A stretch of DNA of 29,669 nucleotides from the IMG/VR virus record IMGVR_UViG_3300030012_003012, positions 1 to 29,669 of that record. One strand, 5' to 3'. Below, piece by piece: positions 1 to 29,669 of the stretch. The notes below the pieces were generated by a model. It was given only the letters and a program-made list of their open reading frames with translations. It was not told where the DNA came from and made no database searches. This DNA comes from a virus. A program made the position numbers and the translations under genes. Each line of letters starts with the position of its first letter. The stretch's first letter is position 1.

Positions 1-71
1 TTAAAATCCACCAGCCGCATTAAACATTCTTGGTGGATACTGTTTCTGTGTTCTTCATCCAGCCAGACCAT
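1..71. repeat. Left copy of the 71-bp terminal overlap
   Basis: Bases 1-71 match 29599-29669 in the same orientation, with a single difference (C at 9, T at 29607). Both copies encode the same stretch of the large terminase, and the difference is a silent third-position change (GTG/GTA). The simplest reading is the redundant end of a circular assembly that sampled two strain variants. A true terminal repeat inside the terminase gene is much less likely. Confidence 0.9.
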
Positions 72-749
72 TGATAACGGTATCGGCCCACCCCCAGCAC
101 CTTGATATTTTTCGCGACCAGAATCGGCAGACATTGAAACAATGCGCCCACCATTTTTTAAAATAACTTGGCTTCTGCCTGGGCCATGCCAGTTTTTGAA
201 AATGGTATCATGGGGCAAATATTCGGTTATTTTGGGTCTGACGTATGCCAATGAATCAGAATAAGATAGCGCAGACGCCCAAACCGTAGTGGGTCCGGGC
301 TGTATTAAATCGGGTGGCAAATCGTTAAGCTTTAGCCATTCTTTTACCCACCATTCATCTGATCCAGCCGCCTTGGCCACTGCCAGCATGGCCCCACATT
401 GAGTTTTTCCGGCCCTATTGCCGCCACTGCACAAAATAGAGTTAATTTTATCTAAATTGTGAAAGGCTTCTATCTGGCTGGTTCGCTGTTCAGTTATTTG
501 GCATGATCTACATATCCAGCGGTTTGGCCCTAACCTTTCCATGGGCTGGCCACAGCCCTTGGCGCGTGGGCTGTTTTCGCCTTTACCATCCCAGCGGCAG
601 CAATGCGGAACCCACAAACGCGCAACGGCCAAAGGATATTTTTTGGCTATGCTTATTAGAGCTTGGCGTTTTTTTAACGCCTTAACCAAATCAGGTTTAT
701 TCTTTTGGGTCTGGTCTTGATCTGGCAAAAGCACCCCTAACAAACGCAT
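1..749 (-). CDS. terL: Terminase large subunit, N-terminal ATPase part (cut by window edge)
   Basis: This is the DNA-packaging motor ATPase, read leftward off the start of the window and completed at 29669-28782; joined it is about 521 residues, normal for TerL. Counting from ATG 747-749, residues 109-116 read GGNRAGKT (Walker A) and residues 228-233 read VWLDEE (Walker B plus catalytic Glu). Before Walker A is a cysteine cluster (Cys50, Cys51, Cys66, Cys80, Cys83) that could bind zinc. The start is uncertain. ATG 749 overlaps the upstream small gene by 53 nt and has no clear ribosome site, and TTG at 687-689 is an alternative. The two ATPase motifs are seen directly and the packaging role is family knowledge. 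Confidence 0.93.
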   Translation of the reverse strand, partial: MRLLGVLLPDQDQTQKNKPDLVKALKKRQALISIAKKYPLAVARLWVPHCCRWDGKGENSPRAKGCGQPMERLGPNRWICRSCQITEQRTSQIEAFHNLDKINSILCSGGNRAGKTQCGAMLAVAKAAGSDEWWVKEWLKLNDLPPDLIQPGPTTVWASALSYSDSLAYVRPKITEYLPHDTIFKNWHGPGRSQVILKNGGRIVSMSADSGREKYQGAGGGPIPLSMVWLDEEHRNSIHQECLMRLVDF

Positions 750-3744: not shown

Positions 3745-4112
3745 CCAAAGAAGAGCGCGAAAACTACAGGCTAATAGTGGATTTTTTAAAAAAAGAAAAT
3801 GCTTTAGAGTTATTGGGCGCATTAAACGAACTGACCAAGGCCAAAGGCTGTTATCAGTGTCAAGATTTAATCATGGCATTAAATAAAGCACGCCAGAAGG
3901 TTTATCAAAGAAATGCGCAGCTTAAAAAGCTTAAAATAAAAAATGAACAGCTAAAAAAGCAGATCGAAGAAAACCAAACAACCAAACAACGCAGAGAAAT
4001 AAACACATATCAAGAGCCAAAAAAACTAACGGTTTTAAAAAAAGAAGATGGCCCTAACGATTTTGCCCACGCCCTACACAATGGGGCTTTTATGAAATGG
4101 ATGATAGACTAA
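3741..4112 (+). CDS. Small coiled-coil early protein
   Basis: The protein has 123 residues. The start ATG 3741 overlaps the upstream TGA (ATGA), and AAGGAGG lies just upstream. The region from about 55 to 90 is a lysine/glutamate/glutamine-rich helix likely to be a coiled coil, and a CYQCQ motif lies near residue 33-37. The C terminus (FAHALHNGAFMKWMID) is more conserved-looking. No family is recognised. It is translationally coupled at both ends, and its stop codon shares a base with the next start (TAATG). Confidence 0.75.
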   Translation: MTKEERENYRLIVDFLKKENALELLGALNELTKAKGCYQCQDLIMALNKARQKVYQRNAQLKKLKIKNEQLKKQIEENQTTKQRREINTYQEPKKLTVLKKEDGPNDFAHALHNGAFMKWMID

Positions 4113-4510
4113 TGGAAAGAGAAACCACGCGCTGTAGAAATTGCGGAAAGCGCACCGCGATAATTGGAAACTTAAGCAATGCAAAATGCTTGCACTGTGG
4201 TAAAGAAATTCTGGCTCATCATCGTTTAATGGTGGCCATCAATTGTAAAGATTGTGGATACATTTTTAAACGCCATAATTTTGGCTGGACAGAAACAAAC
4301 TGTGATAACTGTGGATCTGTCATAAAACACCCCGCTAAAGTCAGCAAAGGCGGCCGCCCAGATAGAGGCGTAAAGAATAAAGCTCAGATATCGTTTGTTT
4401 TGCCAGATGATGATTATGCAGAGATCCAGAAGCTGGCTAAGTTTTATGGCTCTACTAAAGGCGCTGTGTCCAGATATTTAATAAAAGTTGGCTTAGATAA
4501 GATTAATTAG
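4112..4510 (+). CDS. Zinc-ribbon plus ribbon-helix-helix regulator
   Basis: The protein has 132 residues from ATG 4112, chosen because it makes a TAATG overlap with the upstream stop; an in-frame ATG lies at 4097. Four CxxC pairs (Cys8/11, 26/29, 45/48, 64/67) form two successive zinc-ribbon modules. After a basic GGRPDRG linker, residues 92-131 (QISFVLPDDDYAEIQKLAKF and on) have the strand-helix-helix pattern of Arc/CopG/MetJ DNA-binding proteins. Such proteins bind short palindromes as dimers of dimers. A dyad of the genome-wide type begins one base after its stop codon, so it is the best visible candidate for the protein that binds those sites. The domains are read from sequence, while the target is an inference. 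Confidence 0.82.
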   Translation: MERETTRCRNCGKRTAIIGNLSNAKCLHCGKEILAHHRLMVAINCKDCGYIFKRHNFGWTETNCDNCGSVIKHPAKVSKGGRPDRGVKNKAQISFVLPDDDYAEIQKLAKFYGSTKGAVSRYLIKVGLDKIN

Positions 4511-11577: not shown

Positions 11578-12129
11578 ATGAAAACGATACTTTTAAGCGG
11601 CGGGATTGATAGCTACATTCTTTTAAAATCAATTAAAAACAAAAAGGGGCTTTTTGCTACTTTTATTAATTGGGGTCAACCTGCATTAGAGCAAGAAAGA
11701 TTCTACACACAATTAATTTGTGATGTTGAAAAAATACAAATGCAAGAAATTAAAATTGACATTGATAACAGTGCAATGAAAATTGGCACAGGCAGACCAG
11801 GATCAAGATTTGTATCAGGTCGAAACAAATCATTTTTAACAGCTGCATCAAAGACGGCAAAAACACTTTATTTCGGAGCCATACGAAACGACCACAATGA
11901 TTATCCAGATTGCAGACGTGAGTTTTTTGATCAAATGGAAATAGAATTAGGCGTTAAAATTTGCACGCCATTAATCAATAAAACCAAAAGTGAATTGATA
12001 TCTGAAAACAAAAGCTTGCCCTTAAATATTACATGGTCATGTTATGAACCCGTTGGGCCTTTTGAATGTGGAAAATGCAATTCATGTCTTGAAAAATCAA
12101 AATCAATTGTTTTCGCGAATATCAAATGA
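11578..12129 (+). CDS. queC: 7-cyano-7-deazaguanine (preQ0) synthase
   Basis: The protein has 183 residues, shorter than typical QueC (about 220-230), with AAAGGAT before the start. It has a PP-loop ATP site SGGIDS (7-12), an inner GRNKSFL segment (81-87), DYPDCRREF (108-116, matching the QueC signature D..YPDCRPEF) and a zinc site of Cys155, Cys164, Cys167 and Cys170 (C-x8-CGKCNSC). QueC converts 7-carboxy-7-deazaguanine (CDG) with ATP and ammonia to preQ0. Its gene overlaps the DpdA gene by four bases, so the base is probably destined for phage DNA rather than tRNA. QueD, QueE and FolE are absent, so CDG must come from the host. Catalytic and zinc residues are all visible. Confidence 0.93.
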   Translation: MKTILLSGGIDSYILLKSIKNKKGLFATFINWGQPALEQERFYTQLICDVEKIQMQEIKIDIDNSAMKIGTGRPGSRFVSGRNKSFLTAASKTAKTLYFGAIRNDHNDYPDCRREFFDQMEIELGVKICTPLINKTKSELISENKSLPLNITWSCYEPVGPFECGKCNSCLEKSKSIVFANIK

Positions 12130-12749
12130 TTGCCTATTGTGCTGTTTGCACCAACAAAAGAAATTTAAAAGCTTTAAGCGGTTATCCATGGCGTTTTTTG
12201 CTTTCAACATCTACGCCATATTCGATTAATAAATATCGTGATTTTGGCCGCAAATATGCAATAGATAACGGCGCTTATTCTGATTTTGTCAACGGTCGAC
12301 CTTTTCAGACAGAAAGATTCTTAAAGCTTTTGCGCACGTTTGGCCATAATGCTGAATTTATTGTGATACCTGATTCAGTCGGCAATAAAACCGAAACGCT
12401 AATTTTTGCCGAGCATTGGATAAGAAAATTAAATGGCAGACTTCTTTTGGTTTTACAGGATGACATGGAACCAAAAGATATAGAACCGTTTAAAAAATAC
12501 ATCTATGGTTTTTTTATGGGCGGTTCAACAGATTGGAAAATGGCAAACATTCCAATTTTTTCTAATTATGCTATTAAGAACGATCTATATTTCCATGTTG
12601 GCAGGGTTAATTCAATAAAGCGTTTAAAATACTGCATTGATCATAAAGTCAAAAGCATAGATGGATCTGGGCCTTCACGATTTTATAAAGTGGCGCGTGA
12701 TATGACTGGTTTTTTAAAAGACCATAACAACCAATTAAAACTATTATGA
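12126..12749 (+). CDS. dpdA: DpdA-like 7-deazaguanine DNA transglycosylase
   Basis: The protein has 207 residues, with start ATG in an ATGA overlap with queC. It has the motif order of the tRNA-guanine-transglycosylase barrel in compact form: AIDNGAY (46-51, matching MDSGGF), PDSVG (82-86), YGFFMGGSTDWK (127-138, matching the GG base-binding loop), HVGRVNSIKRL (157-167) and SIDGSG (177-182), where Asp179 would be the nucleophile (compare MFDCV). The zinc CxCxxC motif of tRNA enzymes is missing, as in phage DpdA. It would exchange guanine in DNA for the base made via QueC, protecting it from restriction. The alignment is by eye, and coupling to queC is strong supporting evidence. Confidence 0.82.
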   Translation: MIAYCAVCTNKRNLKALSGYPWRFLLSTSTPYSINKYRDFGRKYAIDNGAYSDFVNGRPFQTERFLKLLRTFGHNAEFIVIPDSVGNKTETLIFAEHWIRKLNGRLLLVLQDDMEPKDIEPFKKYIYGFFMGGSTDWKMANIPIFSNYAIKNDLYFHVGRVNSIKRLKYCIDHKVKSIDGSGPSRFYKVARDMTGFLKDHNNQLKLL

Positions 12750-13615
12750 TTTATAAAATAGGCTCCTGTTTTTCTGGGATTGGTGGTTTTGAGCTTGGCC
12801 TCCAATGGGCTTTTGATAATGCTGGCATAGATCATAAGGTTAGCTGGCAGATCGAACAAAACCCATTTTGCCAAACGATCTTAAAGAAGCATTGGCCAGA
12901 ATCGGTTTTATACAGCGATATCAGAGAAGTTAAAAACGTTGATTCAGTAGATATTTTAATAGGTGGTTTTCCTTGTCAAGATATTAGCGTGGCAGGTTTA
13001 CAAAAAGGTGTTAAAAATGGTGAAAAGTCAAGTTTATGGTTTGAAATGCTCCGCATTATTGGCGACATTAGACCCAGAATCGTTGTCTTGGAAAATGTCC
13101 CAAATATCGTTAATGTGGGCGGCCCCACAGTTATTGGAAGCCTTACCAAAATCGGGTATAACTGCGAATGGTCGATTATATCGGCTGCACAATTCGGAGC
13201 GCCACACATTAGAAAGCGCTGGTTTTGCATTGCTACCAACCCCCAGAGCTTCAGCAATGACCGACGAATCAATAGAAGGCTTTTTAAAGAGGAAAGCAGC
13301 CGGAAAAGTCAGCACGCCCAAACTGGCCACAGCGTTAAGGATGTTGCCAACACCATCCGCAAACATGCACAAATACCGCCTAAAGGGAAACACCCAAGCC
13401 AGTCGCAATCTGGAAGCAATGGCCCGAACAGGCAAGTTATCCCAAACTGGCGAAACTGGCCGACTCAACCCGCATTTTGTGGAGGAGATGATGGGGTTCC
13501 CAATCGGGTGGCTAAGTTAAAAGCATTGGGTAACGCTATTGTCCCACAATGCGCCCAATTTGTTTTTGAACAAATAATAAAAAGCGGTATATTAGAATCA
13601 CAGCAAACGACATAA
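12746..13615 (+). CDS. C5-cytosine DNA methyltransferase
   Basis: The protein has 289 residues, with start ATG in an ATGA overlap with dpdA. The canonical motifs are in order: FSGIGGFELGL (I, 9-19, SAM binding), GGFPCQDIS (IV, Cys77 nucleophile), ENV (VI, 116-118), QFGAPHIRKRW (VIII, 149-159) and VPNRVAKLKALGNAIVP (IX/X, 251-267). The region 165-245 between VIII and IX is short and low in conservation and should hold target recognition. It transfers methyl from SAM to cytosine. With queC/dpdA it forms a three-gene DNA-modification operon. A second credible protein is encoded in the +1 frame over most of this gene (13017-13520). The gene ends inside the stop/ribosome-site cassette. Confidence 0.95.
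   Translation: MIYKIGSCFSGIGGFELGLQWAFDNAGIDHKVSWQIEQNPFCQTILKKHWPESVLYSDIREVKNVDSVDILIGGFPCQDISVAGLQKGVKNGEKSSLWFEMLRIIGDIRPRIVVLENVPNIVNVGGPTVIGSLTKIGYNCEWSIISAAQFGAPHIRKRWFCIATNPQSFSNDRRINRRLFKEESSRKSQHAQTGHSVKDVANTIRKHAQIPPKGKHPSQSQSGSNGPNRQVIPNWRNWPTQPAFCGGDDGVPNRVAKLKALGNAIVPQCAQFVFEQIIKSGILESQQTT
13017..13520 (+). CDS. Overlapping-frame protein within the methyltransferase gene (LPTP...MGFPIGW family)
   Basis: The protein has 167 residues from ATG 13017, preceded by AAAGGTG at 6 nt; the frame is open back to an ATG at 12963. Counting from 12963, it carries LSWKMSQ (41-47), LPKSGITANG (61-70), LLPTPRAS (90-97), LPTPSAN (128-134) and GRLNPHFVEEMMGFPIGWL (166-184). This text recurs in a phage family usually annotated as methyltransferase-associated, known to me as free-standing proteins (SWKT..WP.SGM...G.....LPTPTA.D...LNP.WVEWLMGFP.GW). 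The same DNA encodes methyltransferase motifs VI to IX in the other frame. Two conserved texts over one stretch suggests overprinting. The function is unknown, possibly an accessory to methylation. Confidence 0.55.
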   Translation: MVKSQVYGLKCSALLATLDPESLSWKMSQISLMWAAPQLLEALPKSGITANGRLYRLHNSERHTLESAGFALLPTPRASAMTDESIEGFLKRKAAGKVSTPKLATALRMLPTPSANMHKYRLKGNTQASRNLEAMARTGKLSQTGETGRLNPHFVEEMMGFPIGWLS

Positions 13616-22143: not shown

Positions 22144-23376
22144 ATGGGCTGGTTTAATGATTTGTTTGGTGGAATCACAAAATACTTTAAGAAGGTAGAA
22201 AAACCCCAGCTGCCAAATCATGGCGTTAACTGGAATAGCCCAAGCGGAGCCGCTAACCCTTACAGCGCCATGACCGCTTTATCTGCATACGGTGGCCATG
22301 GCTATACACACGCAGCGGTTTTAAGAAGCTCTCAAGATTTAGCCGCATTGCCATTAAGGCTTTTTAAAGGAAAAGGCTCAAATGCTGAACTGGTAGAAGA
22401 TAGCCCTTTTTTAGATTTGATGGATAATCCCAGCACAAATTCGGATCCATTCTTACTTAGAGAGCAATTGGCTATAGACCTTTTATTGTCGGGTAACTGT
22501 TATCTATTAATTATTGGCTTAACCGAACAGCCTACCAGCATAATAAGACTTCATCCAGAAGAAGTAAAAATACAAACAGAGCCAGCCATGGGGGTTAGCG
22601 GATATTTGCACACCTCTGGCGGCCAAACTGTTTTATATTCAACAGATCGGGTTATCCACATTCGCGGCGCTTCTTATGCCACAGGCCCAGAAGGTTTATA
22701 TGGTACAGGTATTGTACAGCCCCTTAACTCTGAAATATCAGCGGATTTATCTGCGGCCAAGCTGGCCAGCATTAGTGCCAAAAAAGGGCGCCCAGATATT
22801 TTGTTGAGCCCTAAAGATGAATCTGACATATGGGGCGCAGAAAGACGCCAGCGTATTTTAAGCCAATATAATGATTTAAGCAAAGAAGGTGGGGCTCTTG
22901 TTTTATCTGGTCAAATCGACGTCACACCATTAAATCTATCAATGCGAGATATGGAATTTTCTAATATTAGAGCCATCTCACGCGAAAGCATATCAGCCGT
23001 TAGCGGTGTGGTCCCAAGCGTTTTGGGGCTGCCTACAGCTAACTACGCCACAGCCCAAGCTCAGGCGTCTACATATTGGCAAAACCAAATTATCAAAGGT
23101 GCGCGTTTTGAATACATGTTTACCCAGATAGCTAAGCGTTTCGATCCAGAATACTACGTTAAATTTGATTATTCTAATGTCGAAGTTTTACAGGCCAAAC
23201 GTGACGCGCAATTGGCCAGAGTAGAAAAACACATACTTTTTGGATTTAGCCCCAGCGCAGCTTATGCGTACGAAGGCTTAGAAACACCTAACATTGAAGA
23301 AGAACAAAACATAGACGAACCATTGGCAGAGGCAGAAGCCTTAGATTTTTCTTTGTTAAAAAAAAAATTACTTTAA
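22144..23376 (+). CDS. Portal protein (HK97 family)
   Basis: The protein has 410 residues, with GGAG before the start. It begins MGWFNDLFGGITKYFKK. Family landmarks: AAVLRSSQDLAALPLRLFK (about 59-77, clip/wing entry), DPFLLREQLAIDLLLSGNCY, the DRVIHIRG strand, and YGTGIVQPLNSEISADLSAA, SRESISAVSGVVPSVLG and the long C-terminal helix region. It forms the dodecameric DNA gate. The frame ends TTA AAA AAA AAA TTA CTT TAA on a run of ten A, and the -1 frame runs on without a stop into the MuF-type protein. Unusually, it diverges from the protease gene rather than preceding it. Confidence 0.93.
   Translation: MGWFNDLFGGITKYFKKVEKPQLPNHGVNWNSPSGAANPYSAMTALSAYGGHGYTHAAVLRSSQDLAALPLRLFKGKGSNAELVEDSPFLDLMDNPSTNSDPFLLREQLAIDLLLSGNCYLLIIGLTEQPTSIIRLHPEEVKIQTEPAMGVSGYLHTSGGQTVLYSTDRVIHIRGASYATGPEGLYGTGIVQPLNSEISADLSAAKLASISAKKGRPDILLSPKDESDIWGAERRQRILSQYNDLSKEGGALVLSGQIDVTPLNLSMRDMEFSNIRAISRESISAVSGVVPSVLGLPTANYATAQAQASTYWQNQIIKGARFEYMFTQIAKRFDPEYYVKFDYSNVEVLQAKRDAQLARVEKHILFGFSPSAAYAYEGLETPNIEEEQNIDEPLAEAEALDFSLLKKKLL
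23358..23367 (+). other. A10 slippery run at the portal/MuF junction
   Basis: Ten consecutive A (23358-23367) lie 6 nt before the portal stop codon. A -1 slip (A-AAA-AAA) moves ribosomes into the frame that continues unbroken into the MuF-type gene. A homopolymer length error (11 A in reality) would have the same effect. Confidence 0.6.
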
Positions 23377-23426
23377 AGGCTGTTCCTGATAAATACAGCC
23401 ACATTAATTTTAAGCCCACCAAAGGA

Positions 23427-24608
23427 ATGGTGGCAGAATTGCAATTGGGTTTAAAATGGCACGCCCAAGGTAAAAGCGGGGACGGTTTAACACCAGCCAC
23501 AGTTAATTGGGCCACCAGAATGGCTAATGGATCTGACATTAGCCCAGAAAAAGCGCGTAAAATGCGCGCATGGTTAGCACGCCATGAAAGCGACAAAAAA
23601 GGAGAGGGTTTTTATCCTGATCAAAACGGTTATCCAAGTGCTGGCCGCGTGGCGTGGGCTTTATGGGCTGGTGATGCTGGTGTAACTTTTTCAAATAAAA
23701 TTGTTTCACAAATGGATAAGGCAGATGAAGAGCAAAAATCGCATAATCTGCAATATCAAAAAAGAACAGCCATATGGTTACGCTATATCGAAAAAACACA
23801 AAAGCCAGCAGAAACCAAGCTACAAACCGCTTTTAATAAATACATGAAAGGCGCTAAAAAGCGATATATAGCACGCATTAAAGAACAAAAAAATTACAAT
23901 GGCAGCATTACAAAAGGAATCGACTATTTTAAAATAATGGCAGCCGCTGAAGAAGAAGTAATTTTAAAAGACTTTCTAAAAGGGACGCCAGATAAAATGG
24001 TAAATGGCCGATTGATTAAAGGTAAACCTGGCGCATATCAAGGCACATGGCAAAAAACAGGTAAAAGCATGTTAAAACGATTGCTAAAGCTTGGCAATGT
24101 CCAAGAGCCATCTGATTTATTTTTTGGTGAGCAGTTTTATTTAGATAAAATCTTAGATCAAGCAGTAAAAGAAATCGTGACCACCACATCTAAGAAGGTA
24201 CAGAAAAAAGTAGTGGATGGCGTTAAAGAAGGTTTGACCATTGACCAGATAGCTTTAAACATTAGTGATCAAGGTTTAAAAACAGATCCCATTTTCGGAT
24301 ATGCCAGAGCCAGAACGATAGCCAGAACAGAAAGCACGCGCATAATTTCTGGGGCACAAAATAGAAGTTTTGTTAAAGCCAAAGAAGAATATGGTTTGAC
24401 AGTTAAAAAGGCATGGGTGGCAAACAGAGACAGCAGAACCAGAGACTTGCATTTAGATTTAGAAGCCAAATATGGCCGAGATGATCAAGCCATAGACGTT
24501 AACGCAGAGTTTATAATAGATAGCTATTCAGCCCAAAACCCTGGGGAATTTGGAGCGCCAGAAATGGATATAAATTGTCGCTGTACTGTGATCCCGATTG
24601 TAAATTAG
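23427..24608 (+). CDS. MuF/SPP1-gp7-type head morphogenesis protein with N-terminal WALWxGD domain
   Basis: There are 393 residues from ATG 23427, but that ATG overlaps its own poor ribosome site and the frame is open back through the portal end (KAVPDKYSHINFKPTKG precedes it), so the true protein probably starts as a portal frameshift product. N-terminal domain (about 1-95): ISPEKARKMRAWLARHESDK and GYPSAGRVAWALWAGDAG, a module seen in several phages next to portal proteins. The C-terminal third is the MuF domain: ARTIARTESTRIISGA, RDSRTRDLHLDLE and GAPEMDINCRCTVIP. MuF proteins are minor head proteins ejected or needed at the portal. Confidence 0.9.
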   Translation: MVAELQLGLKWHAQGKSGDGLTPATVNWATRMANGSDISPEKARKMRAWLARHESDKKGEGFYPDQNGYPSAGRVAWALWAGDAGVTFSNKIVSQMDKADEEQKSHNLQYQKRTAIWLRYIEKTQKPAETKLQTAFNKYMKGAKKRYIARIKEQKNYNGSITKGIDYFKIMAAAEEEVILKDFLKGTPDKMVNGRLIKGKPGAYQGTWQKTGKSMLKRLLKLGNVQEPSDLFFGEQFYLDKILDQAVKEIVTTTSKKVQKKVVDGVKEGLTIDQIALNISDQGLKTDPIFGYARARTIARTESTRIISGAQNRSFVKAKEEYGLTVKKAWVANRDSRTRDLHLDLEAKYGRDDQAIDVNAEFIIDSYSAQNPGEFGAPEMDINCRCTVIPIVN

Positions 24609-24896: not shown

Positions 24897-24936
24897 AGTT
24901 TTTCATAGACTTATCAATAACCTGTGGAAAACTCTG
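24897..24936 (-). repeat. Inverted copy of the origin-like element at 11474-11513
   Basis: The reverse complement of 24897-24936 matches 11474-11513 at 36 of 40 positions (CAGrGTTTTCCACAGGyTAT followed by TGAwAAGTCTATGrAAAACT). The match covers one TTTTCCACA unit and 24 bases beyond it, so the whole element is duplicated, not just the short word. Confidence 0.85.
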
Positions 24937-24991
24937 TGGAAAACTCTGTGGAAAACTCTGTGGAAAACTCTGTGGAAAACTCTGTGAAAAA
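24923..24991 (-). repeat. TTTTCCACA array, six units at 12-bp spacing (DnaA-box-like)
   Basis: TGTGGAAAA (reverse TTTTCCACA) occurs at 24923, 24935, 24947, 24959 and 24971, with a degenerate sixth (TGTGAAAAA) at 24983. The spacer CTC is constant. With TTATCAATAA beside it (24911-24920) it looks like a replication-origin iteron set. Confidence 0.85.
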
Positions 24992-28781: not shown

Positions 28782-29669
28782 CTAAGACTGATATTTTAGC
28801 CACTTATCCAAAAAAGCGACTTGATAACGCAAACAGTCCAAGCCATGATCATTAACTTTTTTTGGCTTGTCTTTTCCTGTGGTGTTTTCTTGCCAGCGAT
28901 ATAGCCGAAACTCTTTTAGCAGATTCACACATTTATCATGGATAAATAACGCTGGTTTACCTTCAGCATTTAGGGCTAAACGCTGCATAACTAAATTAAT
29001 GGTATCAATTACACCAAGATATTTAGGAGCTTTAACCGTTTCGATTCCACAATTATTGGCCAAGGTTCTTCTGGCATCCAATGATTCTGGATCAGCTACA
29101 GCCCAACGGTAATTTGGGTGGGTTAAATATTTTTTAAATCGTTTTTTGACTTCTAAACCGTTTTGGATGGTGGTTTTTTCTGTCTGGAAAAATTCAGCCA
29201 ATACATGTAAAGAATCATCTTTGTGATCGTATCCAAAAGCAAGGCAGCAAAACGGGTTACGGACCCCAAAATCAAAAGCCAGATCAATAGACCAATCTGG
29301 TTTAGGATCGTGGGCTTTTATGACATGGATGTTTTTATCAAACGACGAATAAACCACGCCTTGTTGATTTGTGAAAGAACCATGTAGGCGGCTGGCCTTG
29401 GCTTCTTCGGACATATGGCTAACGGCCTTATAGAGAAGCGCCGAGCTTATCCAAGGATTATCTAAACCGCTAATGTTTACATGTTTAAAAGCTGGATCTT
29501 CATTTTCAATGTAAAGCGCATGTGGCCAAGTTACCCCTTTTAGAGGTGTCATGGTTAAGAACGTGAAGCCAGTGTATTTTTTACCGTTATGGACCTGCTT
29601 AAAATCTACCAGCCGCATTAAACATTCTTGGTGGATACTGTTTCTGTGTTCTTCATCCAGCCAGACCAT
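28782..29669 (-). CDS. terL: Terminase large subunit, C-terminal nuclease part (cut by window edge)
   Basis: This is the continuation of the gene that leaves the window at base 1. It begins here at the Walker B VWLDEE. Next comes the coupling motif FLTMTPLKG (residues 37-45 of this part), then the RNase-H-like nuclease: AFDFGVRNP (first metal Asp), VADPES (second) and NDHGLDCLRY (third), all three acids visible. It cuts the DNA concatemer at the start and end of packaging. The last 71 bases repeat 1-71. Length and motif order are complete when joined, which supports a circular genome. Confidence 0.95.
   Translation of the reverse strand: MVWLDEEHRNSIHQECLMRLVDFKQVHNGKKYTGFTFLTMTPLKGVTWPHALYIENEDPAFKHVNISGLDNPWISSALLYKAVSHMSEEAKASRLHGSFTNQQGVVYSSFDKNIHVIKAHDPKPDWSIDLAFDFGVRNPFCCLAFGYDHKDDSLHVLAEFFQTEKTTIQNGLEVKKRFKKYLTHPNYRWAVADPESLDARRTLANNCGIETVKAPKYLGVIDTINLVMQRLALNAEGKPALFIHDKCVNLLKEFRLYRWQENTTGKDKPKKVNDHGLDCLRYQVAFLDKWLKYQS
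29599..29669. repeat. Right copy of the 71-bp terminal overlap
   Basis: It matches 1-71 with one C/T difference at 29607 (against 9). See the left copy. Confidence 0.9.

Follow-up and report, generated by a model that had tools for sequence, protein, structure and literature searches.

A portal gene and a MuF frame at a run of ten adenines

In the window (the whole 29,669-base stretch of viral DNA analysed here), a portal gene and a frame ending in a MuF domain are offset by one base and meet at a run of ten adenines. The features of this junction are as follows.

22144..23376, plus strand: portal gene, 410-residue (short) product of frame zero; PF04860, phrog_2662 and phrog_12 portal
23298..24608, plus strand: the −1 frame, predicted to be reached from the portal by a slip; uninterrupted from just past the preceding stop through the MuF stop
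23358..23367, plus strand: putative slip site, A10; the same A10 occurs in the independent contig L003, and A9–A11 lie at this junction in relatives
23378..23400, plus strand: weak candidate stem-loop GGCTGT/ACAGCC, 10 nt past the A10; also in L003
23388..23768, plus strand: conserved module directly 3′ of the putative slip site, phrog_2859; begins before the first ATG
23427..23432, plus strand: first candidate starts in the MuF frame, ATG 23427 and GTG 23430; judged unused
24192..24593, plus strand: MuF domain, PF04233 (Phage_Mu_F), near the end of the −1 frame
Across the junction: trans-frame peptide of the predicted portal–MuF fusion, spanning KITLKAVPDKYSHINFKPTK

In profile searches, the portal matched PF04860 at 134.6 bits (E 5.8e-39; curated cut-off 39.1) and the −1 frame matched PF04233 at 67.8 bits (E 1.7e-18; curated cut-off 29.6). 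The 3′ end of the portal frame reads TTG TTA AAA AAA AAA TTA CTT TAA, with its stop (23374–23376) starting six bases past the A10, and the −1 frame across the junction reads KKKITLKAVPDKYSHINFKPTKGMVAEL. Joined by a −1 shift, the two frames make a stop-free portal–MuF fusion of 821 residues. The sequence thus bears out what the first-pass annotation had described here, namely an A10, a portal stop six bases on and a −1 frame that stays open into MuF. The A10 is the sole A-run of at least nine in the window, and it holds the heptamer A AAA AAA in phase at both 23358–23364 and 23361–23367. The candidate stem-loop beyond it has a z of −2.18. Between 15774 and 24608, the portal–MuF locus stands alone on the plus strand, and the adjoining protease, capsid and tail genes lie on the minus strand.

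The same annotation had placed the beginning of the conserved module before the first ATG, and the phrog_2859 alignment agrees: it covers residues 11–137 of the −1 frame (E 5e-22) and starts 13 residues ahead of ATG 23427. Homologs of the module are found in the relatives L037, L063, L102, L181 and L250, and in the last three, similar sequence (KAVPEKYKDINFSVP) stands immediately past their own A-runs. The ribosome-site-like AAAGGA that had been noted is present. Because it directly abuts ATG 23427, and because a start at this point would cut the module, we judge both ATG 23427 and GTG 23430 to be unused.

Split and fused relatives

To survey relatives, IMG/VR was scanned both with individual sequences and with alignments of the portal and of MuF. 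This yielded 180 loci with both domains, many of them one contig retrieved twice. At 95% portal identity they form 75 clusters, and they comprise 110 distinct portal sequences. The closest comparison is provided by L003 (IMGVR_UViG_3300030330_004014), a separate contig about 96% identical over the region, which has the identical A10 and frame break. When other run lengths of the exact window junction were sought in IMG/VR, the L003 contig was the only match. Codon differences between the window and L003 number 47 synonymous and 2 nonsynonymous in the portal, and 44 synonymous and 14 nonsynonymous in the MuF frame past the ATG; thus, both frames are under selection. The stretch from the run to the ATG holds two differences, too few to judge alone.

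In 16 of the 75 clusters, portal and MuF lie in different frames, with MuF always in −1. In every one of these split clusters the open frames overlap and an A9–A11 run lies inside the overlap; in L004, L014, L037, L063 and L094, the MuF frame is open only from the run onward, because the preceding stop shares bases with the run's 5′ end. L115 makes a 17th split cluster; its break is +1 and falls at a second A10 within the downstream module, and it additionally carries the conserved A9 with a close −1 stop. A search of genome contigs found one close metagenome-assembled genome (MAG) contig, PBAL01000088, which is the L115 contig, and one distant MAG. The second A10 in L115/L251 (PBAL01000088), with MuF in +1, may be an error, a mutation or a second slip. 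L039, L040, L051, L074, L168, L175 and L232 likewise have a pair of A9/A10 runs within a single portal–MuF linker.

These split relatives bear on whether MuF is simply a separate gene, read in the window from ATG 23427 or GTG 23430. We consider this highly improbable. MuF does have its own frame in two distant relatives, a Skermanella prophage plasmid and Pseudoalteromonas phage PHS21, and AAAGGA lies just 5′ of the two candidate codons. However, a spacing of 0–3 nt is poor, a start there would remove conserved module residues, and close relatives are plain fusions. Moreover, the first ATG, GTG or TTG of split members occurs 45–271 nt past the run, and in L102, L009, L061 and L100 such codons are absent for 150–271 nt. 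Within the 150 nt past the run of L102, L181 and L250, roughly half of the codon differences are silent when read in the MuF frame, as against few in the other two frames. The MuF-frame codons of L102 between the run and the first start are under selection, and because this stretch precedes any start codon, it would be translated only via the portal.

The more common arrangement is the fused one, in which portal and MuF share a single frame (58 of the 75 clusters). An A9–A11 run is kept in the linker of 44 of these 58; about 14 lack a run of nine or more, so the slip device is not universal. Where the run is present, the first −1 stop follows at a median of 1 codon, versus 8 under the null, and lies within 5 codons in 86% of clusters, versus 38%. 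The +1 frame shows little excess (median stop at 11 codons versus 12 under the null). The −1-stop excess weakens when each 70% cluster is represented by a single member (7 of 10 versus 3.8 expected, about p 0.04), so the relatedness of the sequences has to be weighed; at this level, 18 of 25 clusters carry a run of nine or more. In fused relatives, frame zero encodes the fusion, and slippage would yield the short portal. The fusion had earlier been described as minor, a label that the sequences do not establish. Fused relatives argue against a fixed low share for it, since in many close relatives the fusion is what frame zero encodes and the short portal would come from slippage.

The two layouts have interchanged repeatedly. 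On a portal tree of 74 rows, which was built by a quick method and is provisional in its branch details, there are at least nine changes between split and fused, seven changes of the split label being forced by starred branches, and the run is mostly retained throughout. The neighbor pairs L062/L007, L005/L009 and L081/L211 have opposite frame-zero products and the run in both members. At closer range, run length and layout are constant in 18 of the 20 clusters that hold at least two distinct sequences.

This pattern speaks to two explanations other than slippage. The first, a sequencing or assembly error in the run of a gene that is really a plain fusion, had been named as the rival in the first-pass annotation. 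Long homopolymers are error-prone, and about half of the relatives' own relatives are plain fusions in their DNA. Nevertheless, such an error is very unlikely because the independent contig L003 shows the same A10 and the same break. In addition, across 16 diverged clusters every break is −1 at A9–A11, the constancy of run length and layout within clusters is unexpected of errors, and the close −1 stops of the fused members would be left unexplained. The second is phase variation, in which the run would change length in the DNA and so toggle split and fused genes within a population. Runs of A9–A11 can be hypermutable, and layouts have switched many times on the tree; but layout and run length are stable within clusters, the window and L003 included, and a switch has no need of close out-of-frame stops. 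We assign this explanation scant probability.

The runs are also far from evenly spread. There are 70 runs of nine or more in 66.7 kb of portal–MuF linkers, whereas the flanking coding sequence of portal and MuF, 134.8 kb in all, has none (75 clusters); linker run lengths peak at ten (9 A8, 28 A9, 37 A10 and 5 A11). Resampling of synonymous codons gave 25.7 clusters with a run of nine or more and a maximum of 34 in 200 draws, compared with 61 observed; as the lysines come from the runs themselves, this is a severe null. The comparison of relatives for conservation of the slip and of the frame break, which the first-pass annotation had proposed as a check, thus finds A9–A11 runs on both sides of the split/fused divide, and the runs in the overlaps of all 16 split clusters support a slip that gives two products.

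Two probable products from one gene and the likely agent of the slip

Sequence comparison establishes how the frames lie, that the run is conserved, that the offset is in the −1 direction, that several split members have no start codon they could use, and that the product in frame zero has been inverted repeatedly. As in programmed slippage genes, a slip-prone run is conserved at the frame junction in homologs, and the downstream frame is conserved as protein and lacks an independent start. Very probably, then, this is one gene in which programmed slippage encodes both portal and portal–MuF. Some of the output would shift by one base at the A10, more likely during transcription than during translation. 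Output that does not slip would give the 410-residue portal, and output in the −1 frame, reached through an added A in the mRNA or a −1 step of the ribosome, would give the 821-residue portal–MuF fusion. The portal ring would then comprise plain and MuF-tagged subunits, and MuF would be carried into the procapsid attached to the portal, with the slip determining the ratio. We infer the production of both proteins, their ratio and their place in the virion from sequence comparison, and the mixture of portal and portal–MuF that had been proposed for each virion likewise stays a prediction.

What slips could be either the RNA polymerase or the ribosome, and run length alone cannot separate the two. 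The run is of nine or more A/T, as in transcriptional slippage, and it contains an in-phase slippery heptamer of the form X XXY YYZ, as in −1 programmed ribosomal frameshifting. In many bacterial genomes, selection against slippage-prone A/T runs appears at length nine, and the published criterion for purposeful slippage is conservation of the run among homologs (PMC1088944). A downstream structure or an upstream Shine–Dalgarno stimulator is usual, though not obligatory, for −1 frameshifting; the window has a candidate stem at z −2.18, but among split members there is no excess of a shared downstream stem-loop or of an upstream Shine–Dalgarno-like signal. Runs of A9–A11 that lack such shared signals would fit the RNA polymerase at least as well as the ribosome. 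Thus, of the frameshifting originally suggested for this junction, the slip is retained and the ribosome as its necessary agent is not. Given slippage, our judgement inclines modestly toward the RNA polymerase, with the ribosome holding the smaller but still substantial share.

Slippage by the ribosome alone would give the same two products, whether through a −1 frameshift at A AAA AAA or through sliding along the A-run. It is a sub-mechanism of programmed slippage, with which it is not exclusive, and we regard it as possible but somewhat doubtful. The heptamer A AAA AAA is in phase within every run, and sliding of Escherichia coli ribosomes along A-runs is documented and is robust at A11 (PMC4363877). 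The −1 direction of all split clusters except one is accounted for equally by a ribosomal mechanism. Downstream structure is mildly enriched in fused members (mean z −0.9 versus −0.25), and relatives of the L083/L076 group have an in-phase A AAA AAG with a 9-bp stem-loop 6 nt on. However, no split member relies on A AAA AAG or on fewer than nine adenines; these members also show no excess of downstream structure (mean z −0.19) and have Shine–Dalgarno-like motifs in 2 of 17 cases; and repeated inversion of frame zero is easier with efficient slippage, such as the 15–50% of transcriptional cases (PMC4256274, PMC1088944).

The L083/L076 group comprises L083, L084, L086, L088 and L076, which are fused and lack a run of nine or more. 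Their A AAA AAG stands in the −1 phase about 197–200 nt past the portal core, with a −1 stop within a few codons and the stem-loop at z −1.78. A change to ribosomal frameshifting is possible in these relatives.

With the RNA polymerase as agent, a fuller account may be offered, to which we give nearly even chances. In these mostly metagenomic phages, RNA polymerase slippage on a conserved A9–A11 run, found in all three codon phases, would give portal and portal–MuF. With efficient slippage the two layouts would be all but equivalent, which would account for the repeated inversions of frame zero; the L083/L076 subclade may have ribosomal frameshifting on A AAA AAG with a stem-loop instead. Such a replacement would repeat, inside one phage gene family, the pair formed by Thermus and E. 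coli dnaX.

Known systems and wider meaning

It is useful to compare this locus with slippage systems that are already described. In Citrobacter rodentium tssM1 and Yersinia pseudotuberculosis tssM3, transcriptional slippage on poly-A occurs at ∼15–25% (PMC4256274). As at the portal–MuF junction, the poly-A run (A11 in tssM1) sits close to the 3′ end of the first frame and two length variants result, slippage making the long form in one species and the short form in the other (PMC4256274). These are, however, two cases in a secretion gene, established experimentally, whereas portal–MuF is a phage structural gene represented by dozens of clusters and known from its sequence. Thermus thermophilus dnaX resembles the fused members in that slipped mRNAs of an in-frame A9 stop early and give a short product (PMC1088944), but it encodes a cellular polymerase subunit, and it is the portal–MuF layout that inverts among relatives.

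Among phages, the G/GT tail chaperones and the capsid and tail frameshifts also use a programmed shift to make N-coterminal virion or assembly proteins at a set ratio (PMC5009743; SPP1, PMC6316719). They involve other genes, and the shifts are ribosomal, on heptamers or CCC; the portal is absent from the accessible part of that review (PMC5009743). Constitutive portal–MuF fusions have the same two domains in the same order but, unlike the split locus, a single frame. They occur in Microbacterium clusters EA3, EA5, EA8 and EB (PMC7302621, accessible part, which makes no mention of slippage for the fused gene), in phrog_2662 and in Bacillus phage Silence, in whose portal gene no run of A7 or longer was found. 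Constitutive fusions and programmed frameshifts in phage tail and capsid genes are thus already known (PMC7302621, PMC5009743).

A possible role for tethering is suggested by SPP1, where a few copies of MuF (gp7) enter the procapsid through binding to the portal, gp6 (PMC6316719). This binding is strong, and of virions that lack gp7 only ∼25% are infectious (PMC6316719). In SPP1, gp6 and gp7 come from two separate genes and bind noncovalently (PMC6316719); by analogy, a mixture of portal and portal–MuF would fix some MuF domains covalently on the portal ring.

Portal relatives in INPHARED are all below 25% identity, and no cultured model was found among them. No record covered 80% of the fusion query, the best plasmid match was the Skermanella prophage at 27%, and four distant records lack an A-run at the portal–MuF junction. 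No report of portal or MuF slippage was found in the literature searched; most subscription papers lie outside it, and novelty is accordingly provisional. If correct, slippage would here be described for the first time at the portal vertex, as far as that literature shows, and would offer a simple route to a mixed portal ring with a set MuF copy number. The inversion of frame zero offers a natural experiment on whether selection acts on slippage efficiency or on the reading frame. More practically, in many metagenomic phages gene callers will report MuF as truncated or lacking a start, and poly-A portal–MuF junctions should not be dismissed as assembly errors.

Several observations concern other parts of the window and other phages. 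In Roseobacter phage CRP-831 (L001) and Synechococcus phage S-CBS1 (L002), the module seen past the A10 is found at the N terminus of the annotated major capsid protein, at about 4000–4350, and this module-bearing gene, too, lies immediately 3′ of the portal gene. At 24920–24990 of the window, TGTGGAAAACTC is repeated five times in tandem and resembles DnaA-box-like repeats. At 11578–13615, a QueC-like gene adjoins a C5 cytosine DNA methylase gene, with a 207-residue protein encoded between them; together the three genes possibly point to 7-deazaguanine DNA modification. Finally, the ends of the window (1–80 and 29600–29669) have ∼60 bases in common, inside the terminase gene, and the genome is therefore probably complete and either circular or circularly permuted.
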